From Rhodanobacter sp. DHB23 (GTDB taxonomy: Bacteria; Pseudomonadota; Gammaproteobacteria; Xanthomonadales; Rhodanobacteraceae): DNA of 64,000 nt. The notes beneath the pieces were generated by a model that was not told the DNA's origin, did not search any database, and worked only from the letters and a program-made list of their open reading frames with translations. The first letter of the stretch is position 1. Each line of letters begins with the position of its first letter. Positions 14,475 through 21,149 of this stretch are shown here, piece by piece. The position numbers and the translations under genes were made by a program. The DNA is taken from the NCBI RefSeq assembly GCF_014842975.1, contig NZ_JACYXK010000021.1, forward strand, positions 1-64,000, in the 5' to 3' direction.

Positions 14475-14901
14475 GATCGCTGTTCAACGATAAAAGCCGG
14501 CGCGCGGCGCCCGCGTTCGCCTCCTCTCCCCACCGGGGAGAGGATTGAGGAGAGGGGTCGGGGCTGGCGGGGAACACCATCGAAGCGCTTGTCCGCTTCG
14601 TGGAAAGGGCTTCGCAAGATTGGCCCCTCTCCCCGCCCCTCTCCCCGGAGGGGAGAGGGAGAAAAGGCCGGCCCGCGTTCGCTTCCTCTCCCCTCCGGGG
14701 AGAGGATTGAGGAGAGGGGTCGGGGCTCGTGGGGAAAACCATCGAAGCGCCTGTCCGCTTCGTGGGAGAGGCATCGCAGGATGCGTCCCTCACCCCGGCC
14801 CGCTCCCTGGAAGGGAGAGGGAGAAAAGCTGCACCCTTCTCGCCAACGGAAGGGAGAAAAGCTGCGTCCCCTCCGCAAGGGAGTGGAAGGGAGGCGAAGA
14901 T
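14475..14901. repeat. 427-base repeat island between rsfS and rlmH
   Basis: No gene. It is almost entirely CTCTCCCC/GGGGAGAG units: palindromes at about 14518-14535, 14642-14660 and 14685-14705, and two related units (about 14533-14610 and 14707-14780), each containing GAGAGGGGTCGGGGCT, AAxACCATCGAAGCGC and TGTCCGCTTCGTGG. The duplication points to local amplification. It splits two genes that are normally adjacent or overlapping. Confidence 0.7.
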
Positions 14902-16552: not shown

Positions 16553-16888
16553 TCAGCCGCCGCTGCTCATGGCGTCGCCGGCAGCCGGCTTCATCTTCAT
16601 CGCGTCGTCCTTCTTCATCGCGTCGTCCTTCTTCATCGTGTCGTCCTTCTTCATCGTGTCGTCGGACTTCATCGCCTTGGATTTCATCGCGCCGGACTTC
16701 ATCGCGTCCTTCTTCATCATGCCGTCCTTGTGCATGGAGCCCTTCATCGCATCCTTGGATTGCATCGCGTCGTGCGACATCGCCGTGCCTGAGCTGGCGG
16801 GCATGGCGTCCTGCGCGAAGGCGGGCGCGATGGCGAAGGCGCCGACGGCAACGGAAAGCGCGAGGGCGGCAAGCGTGCGTGTGTTCAT
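16553..16888 (-). CDS. Pentapeptide MXKDX-repeat secreted protein
   Basis: 111 residues. A Sec signal peptide (residues 1-25, cut after AFA) precedes a low-complexity body of repeated Met-x-Lys-Asp-x units (DAMKG, DGMMK, DTMKK, DDAMK), ending in AGDAMSSGG. The protein is rich in Met, Lys and Asp and has no cysteine. Proteins of this type are annotated only by their repeat. Periplasmic Met/Asp-rich chains are plausible metal binders or sacrificial methionine oxidant sinks (inference). A perfect SigF-type promoter (GTAACC-N16-CGAA) ends 59 bases upstream of the ATG, linking it to the adjacent sigF-nrsF operon. The ribosome site is AAGGA. Confidence 0.8.
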   Translation of the reverse strand: MNTRTLAALALSVAVGAFAIAPAFAQDAMPASSGTAMSHDAMQSKDAMKGSMHKDGMMKKDAMKSGAMKSKAMKSDDTMKKDDTMKKDDAMKKDDAMKMKPAAGDAMSSGG

Positions 16889-16976
16889 GGGTGGATCCTT
16901 GAGTGAGGAAAGGGACGGAAGCGGCCGCGCCACCTCCACCCCCTCCTTCGCCACGGATACGTGAACGGTTACATCA
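16889..16976. other. 5' region of MXKDX gene up to the MITE
   Basis: Leader and promoter of the MXKDX gene. The SigF-type promoter occupies 16947-16972. Its -35 element ends only four bases before the MITE (TCA target duplication 16974-16976). The insertion therefore spared the promoter but replaced everything upstream of it. Confidence 0.6.
16947..16972 (-). promoter_or_regulatory. SigF-type ECF promoter for MXKDX gene (GTAACC-N16-CGAA)
   Basis: On the minus strand GTAACC (16972-16967), 16 bases, then CGAA (16950-16947). This is exactly the motif I recall for the Caulobacter crescentus SigF/NrsF system. Two more copies with identical spacing lie in front of sigF and dipZ, 1.6 kb away. Confidence 0.75.
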
Positions 16977-17242
16977 GAGCCTGTTCATGATCTCCAAGCG
17001 CCCCGCACCGGGAGCTGTTTGCGCGCAGGGCAAGGAAGAGCGAAGGAGCGGACGTCCGTCCACGACTGAGTGATGACGCCGGCATGCGGGCAAACAGACC
17101 CGGCCCCATGGGTTGCCATCGAGTGGCCGCCATGCGGCAGCGCGCGGCTTGACCTGACAGCCAGTCAGGCGCTGCGCCACGCGCCACCACCTGACGACCA
17201 CTCGATGACAACGCGGGGCACTTGGAGATCGTGAACAGGCTC
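16977..17242. mobile_element. 266-bp MITE with 22-bp terminal inverted repeats, TCA target duplication
   Basis: The outer 22 bases of each end are inverted copies with a single mismatch (GAGCCTGTTCAxGATCTCCA...). The element is flanked on both sides by TCA (16974-16976 and 17243-17245), a three-base target duplication of TNA form. There is no transposase gene inside; the interior is anonymous GC-rich sequence. TIRs starting GAGCC with a 3-bp TNA duplication resemble the IS1031 group of the IS5 family (from memory). The right-hand TCA is also the nrsF stop codon (TGA on the minus strand), so the gene end was preserved. A possible second end is seen at 35999-36015. Confidence 0.85.
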
Positions 17243-17893
17243 TCACTGCCGCGACAGCAACCGTCCGCCCATCACGGCATTCGCCGCGACCACGATGCCC
17301 ACCGCCAGCGCATGCGTGAGCAGGTCGGTGGCGGCCGCATCGTAGGCGTGGCAGATCTCCAGCAGGCAGGCCGAGGCGGAGGCGCTGGCCAGGCCCACCA
17401 GCAGCGCGGCCAGCAGCGGGCGCAGCGGGCAGGCGCGGCGCAACAGCCACACCAGCAGGGCTGACAGCGGGATCGAGAAGCCGATGATGAAGACGAGGCA
17501 GTCGGCGGACTGGTGCAACGTGGCGATGCTGGTGCCCGGCGCCAGCCAGGTGCGCAGGCAGCCCAGGCCGCTGGCACCGATCCACAACAGCGCGGGCGGC
17601 AGCGGCAACCAGGCCCAGGCGCGCGAGCGCCCCGGCACGGCCAGCGTGAACGCGGCCCAGGCCGCCGTGACCGCGGTCAGCACCGCACCGAGCGCGGCCC
17701 AGGCGAGATCCGGCGCGCCGGCCCAGCGGCGCAGCATGGGCGCATCGCCATAGTGCGCGAACAGCAGCACCGCGAACGCCGCGACCAGCGCCAGCCAGCC
17801 CGCGGTGCGCAGCCACGGCGGCAGCAGGCGCCGCACCGGCACCAGCTCGGCACCGAGCACGTCGATCAGGGCTTGGTGGCGTGGCTCGGACAT
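17243..17893 (-). CDS. nrsF: NrsF-type (DUF1109) membrane anti-sigma factor
   Basis: 216 residues with six predicted membrane helices and a short cytoplasmic N-terminus (MSEPRHQALIDVLGAELVPVRRL), the DUF1109/NrsF plan. In Caulobacter, NrsF holds SigF at the membrane and conserved cysteines sense heavy metals or oxidants. Here cysteines occur in or near helices (SGLGCLRTW, QSADCLVF, RRACPLR, ASACLLEICHAY), consistent with a redox or metal sensor. It starts five bases after the sigma gene's stop, so the pair is cotranscribed. The MITE lies immediately after its stop codon. Confidence 0.88.
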   Translation of the reverse strand: MSEPRHQALIDVLGAELVPVRRLLPPWLRTAGWLALVAAFAVLLFAHYGDAPMLRRWAGAPDLAWAALGAVLTAVTAAWAAFTLAVPGRSRAWAWLPLPPALLWIGASGLGCLRTWLAPGTSIATLHQSADCLVFIIGFSIPLSALLVWLLRRACPLRPLLAALLVGLASASASACLLEICHAYDAAATDLLTHALAVGIVVAANAVMGGRLLSRQ

Positions 17894-17898
17894 GGTGC

Positions 17899-18480
17899 TC
17901 AGGGATCTCCATTCAGGCGGCCGCGCAAGGCCTTCAGGGCGCGGTGCAGGTTCACTTTCAGCGCGCCGGTATTGCGGCCGGTCTGCGCGGCGGCTTCGGC
18001 CAGCGACTGCTCGCGCAGGCCGAGCTGTTCCACCGCCTCGCGCTGGCCGGGCGGCAGTTGCGCGATGGCTTCGCGCAGGCGGCGCGCCTGCTGGCGGCGC
18101 TCGGCATCGTCACTGGCGTCGTCGCGGTCGGGATGGCTGTCCAGCGCGAATTCGTCGTGCAGCTCGCGGCGTCCGCGCCGGCCCTGGCTGCGCAGCGTGT
18201 CGATCGCGCGGCGGCCGGCGATCGCGCCCAGCCAGGCGTCGTAGGAGCGCGCGGGATCGTAGGTGTGGCGTACGCGGTGTACCGTGAGCAGGGTTTCCTG
18301 AACCACGTCGTCCAGCGCGTCCGCACCCACGCCATGACGGCGCGCCACCGCGCGGACCAGCGCCACCGAATCGGCCAGCACGCGCTCGTAGGCACGCCGG
18401 TCGCCCGCCTGCGCGGCGGCCATCCACGCGGCGCGCCGGCGTTCGGCCTGTTCGTTGGCGCTGGCGGGCTCGGCGGACAC
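17899..18480 (-). CDS. sigF: ECF sigma factor, SigF type (partner of NrsF)
   Basis: Directs RNA polymerase to stress promoters when released from NrsF. Sigma region 2 is visible at AAWMAAAQAGDRRAYERVL ... ADALDDVVQETLLTVHRVRHTYDP ... YDAWLGAIAGRRAIDTLR and region 4 at LREAIAQLPPGQREAVEQLGLREQSLAEAA ... GALKVNLHRALKALR. The start is uncertain: the frame opens at a TTG (18546) with no ATG. I use the GTG at 18480, giving 193 residues, which fits ECF length; ATG 18423 would cut into region 2. A GTAACC-N16-CGAA promoter lies upstream (18583-18608), so the gene is probably autoregulated. Assignment to SigF rests on the NrsF partner and these promoters. Confidence 0.85.
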   Translation of the reverse strand: MSAEPASANEQAERRRAAWMAAAQAGDRRAYERVLADSVALVRAVARRHGVGADALDDVVQETLLTVHRVRHTYDPARSYDAWLGAIAGRRAIDTLRSQGRRGRRELHDEFALDSHPDRDDASDDAERRQQARRLREAIAQLPPGQREAVEQLGLREQSLAEAAAQTGRNTGALKVNLHRALKALRGRLNGDP

Positions 18481-18582
18481 GGAAACGCGGCAATCCGTTG
18501 GCGGGGCGAAGCCGCCATCCCATACCAAGCTGCCATCGGCGGTCAAGAGCGATTTGTCCCATGCTGCGGTTCCATCCGGCGA

Positions 18583-18608
18583 TTCGCCGCATCCATCGCC
18601 GCGGTTAC
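18583..18608 (-). promoter_or_regulatory. SigF-type ECF promoter for sigF-nrsF (GTAACC-N16-CGAA)
   Basis: Minus strand GTAACC (18608-18603), 16-base spacer, CGAA (18586-18583). It lies about 100 bases before the GTG start of sigF and predicts positive autoregulation. It is back to back with the dipZ promoter (18623-18648), only 14 bases apart. Confidence 0.75.
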
Positions 18609-18622
18609 CCGTATCGGGTGAT

Positions 18623-18648
18623 GTAACCGCCGGCCCGGCGGCAGCGAA
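18623..18648 (+). promoter_or_regulatory. SigF-type ECF promoter for dipZ-msrB (GTAACC-N16-CGAA)
   Basis: Plus strand GTAACC (18623-18628), 16-base spacer, CGAA (18645-18648). The dipZ ATG is 32 bases downstream, a normal leader. It is the divergent partner of the sigF promoter. Confidence 0.75.
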
Positions 18649-18680
18649 TCACCGGCACACACCCACACCGGACCACCATC

Positions 18681-20408
18681 ATGCTTCTGCTGATCCTTGC
18701 CTACCTTGGCGGCGTGCTGACCATCCTCAGCCCCTGCATCCTGCCGGTGCTGCCCTTCGTGTTCGCGCGCGCCGACCGCCCGTTCCTGAAGAGCGGCCTG
18801 CCGATGCTGGTCGGCATGGCGGCTACCTTCGCACTGGTCGCCACGCTGGCGGCAGTGGGCGGTGGCTGGGCGGTGCACGCGAACCAGTACGGCCGCGCCG
18901 TGGCACTGGTAGTGCTGGCCCTGCTCGGCCTCACCCTGCTGTCCAGCCATGTCGCCGAGTGGCTGACGCGGCCGTTCGTGGCGCTGGGCAACAAGCTCAG
19001 CCAGCGCACGGACGGCGATGGCGAATCGATCTGGGGCGCGGTGGGCCTGGGCATCGCCACCGGTCTGCTGTGGGCACCGTGCGCGGGGCCGATCCTCGGC
19101 CTGCTGCTGACCGGTGCCGCGCTCAAGGGCGCCAGCGTCACCACCACCCTGCTGCTGCTCACCTACGCGCTGGGCGCGGCGACTTCGCTGGCGCTGGCCC
19201 TGGCCGTGGGCGGACAGGTGTTCGCGGTGATGAAGCGTTCGCTGGGTACGGGCCAGTGGGTGCGCCGCGTGCTGGGCGTGCTGGTGCTGGTGGGCGTGGG
19301 CGCCATCGCGATGGGCGCGGACACCGGCCTGCTCACCCGCGTCTCGCTGGCCGGCACCAATCGCATCGAGCAGAAGCTGATCGACGCCGTGCGCCCGATG
19401 CCCGCCGCGGTGGCATCGCCCGCACCAAAGCCCGGCGAGGCATTGCCGGTGGAAGGCACGCTGCCTCCGCTGGCCGGCGCCACCGGCTGGATCAACAGCG
19501 GGCCGCTCACGCCGGTATCGCTGCACGGCAAGGTGGTGCTGGTGGATTTCTGGACCTACTCCTGCATCAACTGCCTGCGTTCGTTGCCCTATGTCGAAGC
19601 CTGGTACGACAAGTACAAGGACCACGGCCTGGTGGTGATCGGCGTGCACTCGCCCGAGTTCGCCTTCGAGAAGGACCCGGCCAACGTGCAGGCCGCCGTG
19701 CAGCGGCTGGGCGTGCGCTACCCGGTGGCGCTGGATTCCGATTACGCGATCTGGCAGGGCTTCAACAACGAATACTGGCCGGCGGAATACTTCATCGACA
19801 CGCAGGGCCGCATCCGCCACCACAGCTTCGGCGAAGGCGGCTACGCCGAAGACGAGGACGTGATCCGCAAGCTGCTGACCGAAGCCGGCAACGCCAACCT
19901 GCCCGGCGGCTACGTGCAACCCGATGCGAAGGGTGCGCAGGCAGCCATCTCCAACGACGACGACCGCTCGTCGGAAACCTACGTGGGTTATGCGCGTGCC
20001 GAAAACTTCGCCAGCGGCCAGGTTGCGCACGACGAAGCCTTCGACTACCACGCGCCCGCGCAACTCGCTTCCAACCAGTGGGCGCTCGCCGGCCGCTGGA
20101 TCGTGCAGCCACAGAGCGCTGCACTGGACATGGCCGGCGGCTCCGTCAGCTACCGCTTCCGTGGCCGCGACCTGCACCTGGTGCTCGGCCCGGGCAGTGA
20201 TGGCAAGCCGGTGCGCTTCCGCATCACGCTCGATGGCCACGCCCCCGGCGCCGACCACGGCATGGACACTGATGCCGACGGCAACGGCACCGTCACCGCG
20301 CAGCGCCTGTACCAGCTGGTGCGCCAGGCCCACGGCAACGGCGAACGCACGTTCACCATCACCTTCCTCGACGCCGGCGTGCACGCTTACGCATTCACGT
20401 TCGGCTGA
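18681..20408 (+). CDS. dipZ: DipZ-type fused thiol-disulfide transporter (CcdA membrane domain + TlpA thioredoxin domain)
   Basis: Carries reducing equivalents across the inner membrane. 575 residues: the membrane part (residues 1-230) has the CcdA cysteines, Cys19 in ILSPCILPVLPF and Cys134 in LLWAPCAGPILG. A periplasmic TlpA/AhpC-like thioredoxin domain follows (about 245-390) with Cys295-x-x-Cys298 (TYSCINCLRS). The C-terminal region (about 400-575) is a DipZ C-terminal beta domain ending in HAYAFTFG. The gene is followed by a REP hairpin and a periplasmic MsrB, the obvious client for the electrons. A SigF-type promoter sits 32 bases upstream of the start. Confidence 0.9.
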   Translation: MLLLILAYLGGVLTILSPCILPVLPFVFARADRPFLKSGLPMLVGMAATFALVATLAAVGGGWAVHANQYGRAVALVVLALLGLTLLSSHVAEWLTRPFVALGNKLSQRTDGDGESIWGAVGLGIATGLLWAPCAGPILGLLLTGAALKGASVTTTLLLLTYALGAATSLALALAVGGQVFAVMKRSLGTGQWVRRVLGVLVLVGVGAIAMGADTGLLTRVSLAGTNRIEQKLIDAVRPMPAAVASPAPKPGEALPVEGTLPPLAGATGWINSGPLTPVSLHGKVVLVDFWTYSCINCLRSLPYVEAWYDKYKDHGLVVIGVHSPEFAFEKDPANVQAAVQRLGVRYPVALDSDYAIWQGFNNEYWPAEYFIDTQGRIRHHSFGEGGYAEDEDVIRKLLTEAGNANLPGGYVQPDAKGAQAAISNDDDRSSETYVGYARAENFASGQVAHDEAFDYHAPAQLASNQWALAGRWIVQPQSAALDMAGGSVSYRFRGRDLHLVLGPGSDGKPVRFRITLDGHAPGADHGMDTDADGNGTVTAQRLYQLVRQAHGNGERTFTITFLDAGVHAYAFTFG

Positions 20409-20418
20409 ACACGCCCGA

Positions 20419-20491
20419 TGGGAGCGCACCCTGTGCGCGAATGCCCTGGCGCTTGATCGAAGCAAGAGCCATCGCGCACAAGGTGCTCCTA
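20419..20491. repeat. REP hairpin 2, between dipZ and msrB
   Basis: The left arm contains GGGAGCGCACCCTGTGCGCG and the right arm contains CGCGCACAAGGTGCTCCTAC, with several mismatches, separated by about 30 bases including CTTGATCGAAGC. It belongs to the same family as 4622, 34063 and 41935. As it lies inside a probable operon it may modulate msrB expression or stabilise the dipZ message 3' end. Confidence 0.75.
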
Positions 20492-20531
20492 CCGGGATCT
20501 TCCATTCGCATTCACGTCATCGGAGGCTGCC

Positions 20532-21149
20532 ATGTCCCGCATCGATGAATCCCTCGCGATGGATCGCCGCCGTTTCCTGCGCGCCGCGTTGAGCGGCGGC
20601 GCCCTGCTCGCGGTCGGCGGCAGCATTGCGCTACCCCGCCTGCTCGCCGCCGGTGCCGAAGACGGCCTGCCGGCGCTGGTCCACAGCGCACCCGGCGACG
20701 TGCTGCTGGAGTGCTACGCCGACGACGGCCACGATCTCGGCGCCTGCCACGTCCAGCGGCTGGTGCTCACAGACGCGCAATGGCGCTCCCGCCTGTCACC
20801 GCTGGCTTTCGAAGTGATGCGCCGCGCCGGCACCGAACGCGCCTTCAGCGGCCCGCACGAACGCCCCGCGCAACCCGGCCTCTTCCGCTGCGTCGCCTGC
20901 GCCACCGCACTCTACGACGCCGCCACCGAATTCGACTCCGGCACCGGCTGGCCCAGCTTCTGGCGCCCCATCGCGAAACGCAACGTGGTCGAAACCCGCG
21001 ACGACAGCTTCGGCATGGAGCGCATCGCGATCAGCTGCGCCGGCTGCGACAGCCACCTCGGCCACGTGTTCGACGACGGGCCGCAGCCGACGGGGCTGCG
21101 CTATTGCATGAACTCGGTGGCGCTGCGGTTCGTGGCGCGGACAGGGTGA
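20532..21149 (+). CDS. msrB: Periplasmic peptide-methionine (R)-S-oxide reductase MsrB with Tat signal
   Basis: Reduces methionine-R-sulfoxide in proteins. 205 residues. The N-terminus has a twin-arginine signal (MDRRRFLRAAL, residues 10-20, then a hydrophobic stretch to about 40), so the enzyme is exported folded. The MsrB core holds zinc cysteines 120, 123, 169 and 172, the GTGWPSFWRP motif, HLGHVFDDGP, and the catalytic Cys192 in RYCMNS. No second recycling cysteine is obvious apart from Cys61/72, so an external reductant is needed. The upstream DipZ could supply it. Together they form a periplasmic protein-repair pair under the SigF-type promoter. Confidence 0.92.
   Translation: MSRIDESLAMDRRRFLRAALSGGALLAVGGSIALPRLLAAGAEDGLPALVHSAPGDVLLECYADDGHDLGACHVQRLVLTDAQWRSRLSPLAFEVMRRAGTERAFSGPHERPAQPGLFRCVACATALYDAATEFDSGTGWPSFWRPIAKRNVVETRDDSFGMERIAISCAGCDSHLGHVFDDGPQPTGLRYCMNSVALRFVARTG

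Follow-up and report, generated by a model that had tools for sequence, protein, structure and literature searches.

A SigF-NrsF locus of Rhodanobacter sp. DHB23 with a probable role in envelope methionine-sulfoxide repair

In this study, we have analyzed a 64,000-nucleotide stretch of DNA (the window) from Rhodanobacter sp. DHB23 (contig NZ_JACYXK010000021.1; genome of 3.97 Mb in 29 contigs), in which genes for an extracytoplasmic function (ECF) sigma factor, SigF, and an anti-sigma factor, NrsF, lie beside dipZ, msrB, and the gene for a methionine-rich MXKDX-repeat protein. The sigF gene (17899 to 18546, minus strand) starts with TTG and encodes 215 amino acids with sigma regions 2 and 4 only (Sigma70_r2 and Sigma70_r4_2); nrsF (17243 to 17893, minus strand) lies 5 bp downstream and encodes a 216-amino-acid protein of the DUF1109/NrsF family (PF06532, 68.8 bits; cutoff, 26.8). 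Our comparison set comprised 59 genomes of the family Rhodanobacteraceae, of which 36 have an NrsF above the cutoff and one, G006, has a single match below it. At 32 of the 36 NrsF loci, methionine sulfoxide reductase (Msr) genes accompany the sigma pair; these genomes, namely, that of the window and L045 to L075, form the Msr-type set. Among 31 relatives, the start codon nearest to that of the window sigF is TTG in 29 and GTG in 2.

On the plus strand, dipZ (18681 to 20408) encodes a DsbD/CcdA-type membrane part, a thioredoxin part with the motif CINC, and a C-terminal Thioredoxin_10 domain, an order that, together with the CxxC motif, fits the DipZ class. Thioredoxin_10 scored 164 bits and DsbD_TM fell just short of its cutoff (26.5 versus 27.1), while the soluble part resembles Mycobacterium DipZ (2hyx; E value, 5e-66) and the membrane part resembles CcdA (5vkv; E value, 2e-10). 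Four cysteines are conserved in 27 of 27 DipZ proteins. The msrB gene (20532 to 21149, plus strand; TIGR00357, 166 bits) encodes a protein with a twin-arginine signal, RR-x-[FLM], which is retained in all 30 relatives, as are the four zinc-type cysteines and the catalytic Cys192. Two further cysteines in the N-terminal extension, Cys61 and Cys72, are both present in 24 of these 30 proteins and both absent in 6, a paired pattern that would fit a relay pair.

The MXKDX-repeat protein (16553 to 16888, minus strand) has 111 amino acids and a signal peptide and scored 39.8 bits against TIGR02953 (cutoff, 41). A longer, GTG-started open reading frame begins at 16954, within the promoter described below; translation therefore more likely starts at the ATG at 16888. 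With an assumed cut at residue 25, the mature protein would have 86 residues, 16 of them methionine (18.6%), with no cysteine and two histidines.

Three copies of the motif GTAACC-N16-CGAA precede these genes: one upstream of the MXKDX gene (16947 to 16972, minus strand), one upstream of sigF-nrsF (18583 to 18608, minus strand), and one upstream of dipZ-msrB (18623 to 18648, plus strand), with the CGAA box 58, 36, and 32 nucleotides from the respective start codons. The original prediction placed the sites at these positions, and a motif scan confirmed them (three matches against 0.18 expected; 0 of 100 shuffles reached three); it had also held that the other GTAACC/GGTTAC sites it noticed lack CGAA at this distance, and indeed the three sites are the sole window matches over all spacers from 14 to 20. 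Its reading of the motif as the Caulobacter sigma-F site agrees with the published motif (PMC3511200). The divergent sigma-F-type promoters stand back to back (18603 to 18628), with their -35 boxes 14 bp apart; among relatives in which both sites are close, the gap between them varies widely, with 2 bp in L051 and about 294 bp in L073 as the extremes.

A genome-wide search, also proposed at the outset, was favorable in part: the window genome has five exact copies against two for a control, the reversed pattern, but across the 59 genomes the bare string is not rare (270 matches against 228 for the control in the 36 NrsF genomes; 59 against 90 in the 23 genomes without NrsF). Motif rarity alone was rejected as proof because the reversed control is equally frequent, and the evidence therefore rests on position and conservation.

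That conservation is extensive. Requiring a spacer of 16 and allowing at most one mismatch, we found the sigF site in 31 of 31 evaluable Msr-type loci (25 exact, 6 with one mismatch; L060 was left out because a contig end cuts the locus), the dipZ site in 27 of 27 loci with dipZ (22 exact), an msrB site in the four of four loci where dipZ is gone and msrB comes first, and the MXKDX site in 14 of 14 (13 exact), including two relocated genes (L076 and L077). Exact matches at these loci number 61 with N16 and 1 with all other spacers from N10 to N23. In a second set of named organisms, the best 80 of 93 relatives (Rhodanobacter, Dyella, Frateuria, Fulvimonas, and others), the site was found at sigF in 79 of 79 evaluable loci (49 exact), at dipZ in 72 of 72 (62 exact, 8 with one mismatch, and 2 exact with a spacer of 15), and at the MXKDX gene in 15 of 15 (13 exact). 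All 72 named loci with dipZ have it divergent from sigF. The two sets overlap, with many of the same organisms, and share ancestry; therefore, these counts are not independent events. Taken with the Caulobacter match, the conservation of these promoters across the family supports the proposal of a single SigF/NrsF-type regulon that includes all three sites; SigF itself is a putative ECF16-type sigma factor with a predicted autoregulatory promoter.

The fourth and fifth exact sites of the genome lie outside the window, before a gene for an exported MsrA (PMSR, 184 bits; signal-peptide-like N terminus), 31 nucleotides from its ATG, and before a gene for a secreted beta-propeller protein (84 nucleotides). 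The msrA site was sought upstream of the best MsrA match in 42 genomes besides that of the window. It is present in 30 of 30 Msr-type genomes (29 exact and 1 with GTAACT; 31 of 31 with the window's own) and absent from all four NrsF genomes of a separate, metal type and from all eight NrsF-less genomes examined. Upstream of a second MsrA class, a site was found in 1 of 18 regions, at -501. The metal-type genomes (G010, G011, G033, and G047) have an NrsF scoring 231 to 242 bits, together with DUF2282, MNIO, and DUF2063 genes, which were Pfam-confirmed in G033 (L044) and recognized by eye in the other three. Since the msrA genes of these four genomes have no site, we rejected the more general proposition that SigF drives Msr genes in all NrsF genomes.

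The propeller gene (L007 1831 to 2886, genome C10, minus strand) has no Pfam match. Four full-length orthologues, including that of the window genome, and one partial match were found in the 59 genomes, and all four genes carry GTAAC[C/T]-N15/16-CGAA about 80 to 110 nucleotides upstream of the start (two exact, one GTAACT-N16, and one GTAACT-N15); the aligned upstream regions show little conservation otherwise, with 33 of 172 columns invariant, GTAAC among them. The structural model is of moderate confidence (predicted local distance difference test score, 70; predicted template modeling score, 0.75) and resembles many propellers, including AztD and 6-phosphogluconolactonase; the match thus names a probable fold for this secreted protein and no function. 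In other family genomes, the site also occurs before genes for a catalase-domain protein (L037 1501 to 2693), a DoxX protein (L024 1501 to 2061), and a CcdA/DsbD-type protein (L023 1501 to 2338).

Based on these data, we consider it probable, with good confidence, that SigF and NrsF control the repair of methionine sulfoxide in the envelope, through MsrA, MsrB, and DipZ, together with a sacrificial methionine-rich protein. NrsF-family anti-sigma factors bind and release their sigma factors, with C129 and C179 involved in OsrA of Bradyrhizobium japonicum, and a response to H2O2 or hypochlorous acid (HOCl) is known for ECF16 regulons that include Msr genes (PMC3420878, PMC8315932). It can be envisioned that membrane-bound NrsF holds SigF as long as the periplasm is free of oxidant, HOCl or peroxide being the likeliest trigger, and that freed SigF would then bind its sites and raise the expression of its own operon, dipZ-msrB, the MXKDX gene, and the unlinked msrA and propeller genes. 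DipZ would pass electrons from cytoplasmic thioredoxin to MsrA and MsrB; the earlier suggestion that it serves the exported MsrB stands as the likeliest reading. As families, MsrA enzymes reduce the S form of methionine sulfoxide and MsrB enzymes the R form, and the envelope pair would between them reduce both. The MXKDX protein may act as a sacrificial methionine pool that is oxidized and then restored by MsrA and MsrB; it had been put forward as a metal or oxidant sink, and the oxidant sink is the likeliest reading, with the metal alternative being the weaker.

Several observations weigh against this interpretation. The window-type NrsF proteins form a divergent branch, scoring 61 to 80 bits against 231 to 242 for the metal type, and C181, the likeliest counterpart of OsrA C179, is kept in only 26 of 32. 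The window NrsF has only three methionines, four loci keep msrB without dipZ (L058 and L062 to L064), one Msr-type genome of the same genus, G054, has no exported msrA class, MXKDX genes (TIGR02953 match) occur in only 19 of the 36 NrsF genomes, and the reversed control equals the bare motif in frequency genome-wide. NrsF C132 is kept in 32 of 32 proteins and in three metal-type NrsF proteins, and C181 lies one column off a metal-type cysteine, in an alignment that does not include OsrA itself. Sensing through methionine oxidation, as speculated for OsrA, is unsupported for an NrsF with three methionines. Full-length DipZ was not found elsewhere in the genomes of L058 and L062 to L064, among the matches listed, and DipZ is therefore not indispensable to MsrB. 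Likewise, the MXKDX protein was rejected as a constant part of the regulon, given its presence in 19 of 36; matches occur in 0 of 23 genomes without NrsF (P = 7e-6). Of four weak or odd matches, three (L078 to L080; G038, G010, and G015) have no site, and G005 was left out.

The rival that survives best is a heavy-metal response, to which the original prediction had linked the motif: SigF-NrsF would sense copper, cadmium, or chromium, the MXKDX protein would bind metal, and the Msr enzymes and DipZ would repair metal-driven oxidation. The motif is the same as that of Caulobacter sigma-F, which responds to chromium and cadmium (PMC3511200); 4 of the 36 NrsF genomes have bufferin-type (copper-binding) DUF2282/MNIO/DUF2063 genes beside SigF-NrsF (Pfam-confirmed in L044 only), and L058 has a DUF2282 protein in place of MXKDX, downstream of the same promoter. 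However, the metal-type loci form a distinct set of four genomes, 32 of 36 NrsF loci are of the Msr type, and the exported msrA has a site in genomes of the latter type only. Furthermore, MXKDX homologues in Brucella and the methionine-rich peptide of Azospira act against HOCl (PMC8315932), and the mature window protein has no cysteine and two histidines. No DUF2282, MNIO, or DUF2063 gene was found under the five exact sites of the window genome. We therefore regard a metal response as unlikely. It is still less plausible, indeed quite improbable, that dipZ-msrB serves general envelope thiol chemistry, such as cytochrome c maturation or disulfide isomerization, and is part of the regulon only incidentally; DipZ does belong to the DsbD/CcdA world, but dipZ and msrB adjoin, are divergent from sigF in every named locus with dipZ, and are coconserved with msrA. 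That the three motif matches arose by chance or are read by an unrelated ECF sigma factor deserves almost no credence: the string alone is common and the -35 boxes of other ECF factors are similar, but position, spacing, and gene set are conserved in 31 other family genomes, and the msrA sites contrast with genomes lacking an Msr-type locus.

Also in favor of envelope methionine repair through this locus is the distribution of NrsF and of the molybdenum enzyme MsrP across the family. MsrP (NF003767, above the cutoff) occurs in 14 of the 59 genomes, comprising 0 of the 36 with NrsF and 14 of the 23 that lack it (Fisher P = 6e-8; at the genus level, 0 of 16 versus 7 of 10, P = 2e-4, uncorrected for kinship). 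The window genome has no PF00174 match, and hence no YedY/MsrP-fold gene was found in it. A weaker YedY-like match (about 97 to 109 bits) occurs in 11 genomes; in all seven Msr-type genomes with such a gene, an exact site precedes a cytochrome b561/molybdopterin-domain pair (Pfam-checked in L148), and no such site was found in the fetched DNA at the YedY-like genes of G010, G011, G047, and G055 (P = 0.003), where one-mismatch matches lie inside genes. Five of the seven (G003, G024, G029, G045, and G058, the last cut by a contig end) have no dipZ at the locus; G042 and G052 have both dipZ and the YedY-like pair. At L158 to L161, sites stand at CcdA-like and thioredoxin-like genes; these loci were chosen for their sites or CcdA matches and are therefore an illustration, not a test. 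In L162, from an NrsF-less genome, msrB, dipZ, and msrA stand in a row without a site.

A wider reading, which we put forward tentatively and rate at somewhat below even, is that SigF-NrsF in this family is a plug-in programme for envelope methionine repair, in which the sigma pair, promoter, MsrB, and MsrA are fixed, other modules are exchangeable, and MsrPQ is the alternative. Exchange might affect the electron source (DipZ, CcdA with thioredoxin, or cytochrome b561 and a YedY1-like enzyme) as well as the sink (an MXKDX protein or, in its slot, a DUF2282 protein); the hitherto undescribed secreted propeller could also belong to the programme. As part of the same reading, DipZ-fed MsrA and MsrB might recharge the MXKDX protein as a renewable hypochlorite buffer, with MsrB C61 and C72 relaying to DipZ.

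A miniature inverted-repeat transposable element (MITE)-like element outside the regulon (16976 to 17243; 31-nucleotide terminal inverted repeats, 94% complementary) is inserted between nrsF and the MXKDX promoter. It has 12 further near-full copies in the genome (82 to 90% identity). The spacing here is 270 bp, compared with about 0 to 38 bp in three loci of the same genus (L052, L053, and L057); the element stops 3 bp short of the MXKDX -35 box, which is intact. Elsewhere in the window, a 158-nucleotide GC-rich repeat occurs in two direct copies, 88% identical (14509 to 14828).

The original prediction regarded a DipZ-fed MsrB within such a regulon, with a promoter shared by a disordered Met/Lys/Asp protein, as undescribed, which is not supported, since EcfF/OsrA of B. 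japonicum (PMC3420878) and BcrS/AbcS of Brucella (PMC8315932) are known. The former is similar in its ECF16 sigma factor, six-helix NrsF-family anti-sigma factor, autoregulation, and GTAAC-type promoter; it controls three Msr genes together with a DsbD-like protein and a thioredoxin, proposed to feed periplasmic Msr, and its regulon also includes small hypothetical proteins (PMC3420878). Unlike the window, EcfF/OsrA has a spacer of 14 to 15, a -10 box of CGT/CGA, and CcdA with a separate thioredoxin in place of a one-chain DipZ, and the Discussion and regulon sections of that paper name no MXKDX protein (PMC3420878). BcrS/AbcS likewise combines an ECF16 sigma factor and an NrsF-family anti-sigma factor with an MXKDX gene beside the sigma gene and a methionine sulfoxide reductase; under HOCl it controls the MXKDX protein together with MsrQP, from a (T/C)GTAAC-N17-CGAA promoter, but its reductase is the molybdenum enzyme MsrP with MsrQ, whereas the window has the thiol enzymes MsrA, MsrB, and DipZ (PMC8315932). 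SigF/NrsF-MrpX-YedY1 of Azospira suillum is also a switch for a methionine-rich sacrificial peptide and a reductase against hypochlorite, with YedY1 in place of MsrA/MsrB/DipZ (PMC8315932, PMC5748585). The window genome thus has the exported methionine-rich MXKDX protein under a sigma promoter typical of MrpX/BcrX but not the MsrP/YedY1 partner; YedY1-like genes and a cytochrome b561 occur behind a sigma-F-type promoter in seven of its relatives. In Haemophilus influenzae, RpoE2/HrsE similarly places periplasmic MsrA/MsrB activity under an ECF sigma factor, and the HOCl-inducible MsrAB is fed by CcdA and thioredoxin; however, the two activities are fused, HrsE is a 67-amino-acid cytoplasmic protein whose anti-sigma relatives go with ECF group 13, and no methionine-rich protein appears in the excerpts of those reports (PMC7907618, PMC9404787). 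Caulobacter sigma-F/NrsF shares the sigma factor, anti-sigma factor, and promoter, but its targets under chromium and cadmium are DUF2282/DUF692/DUF2063 genes, and no change was seen in its msrA homologues (PMC3511200).

In conclusion, what is new relative to these systems is the union of MsrA, MsrB, and DipZ with an MXKDX protein under one predicted switch, a combination that we did not find in the open-license literature, where an earlier mention is possible, together with the finding that NrsF and MsrP never share a genome among 59, the exchangeable electron-supply modules, and the propeller gene. ECF16 switches, sacrificial methionine-rich proteins, and thiol-fed exported Msr enzymes, hitherto studied separately, are thus joined in one predicted regulon that can be read from sequence, and a family-specific secreted propeller protein gains a first lead to its function. 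The non-overlap with MsrPQ suggests a choice between a thiol and a molybdenum route for envelope repair, and the exchange of modules behind one promoter makes that choice testable.

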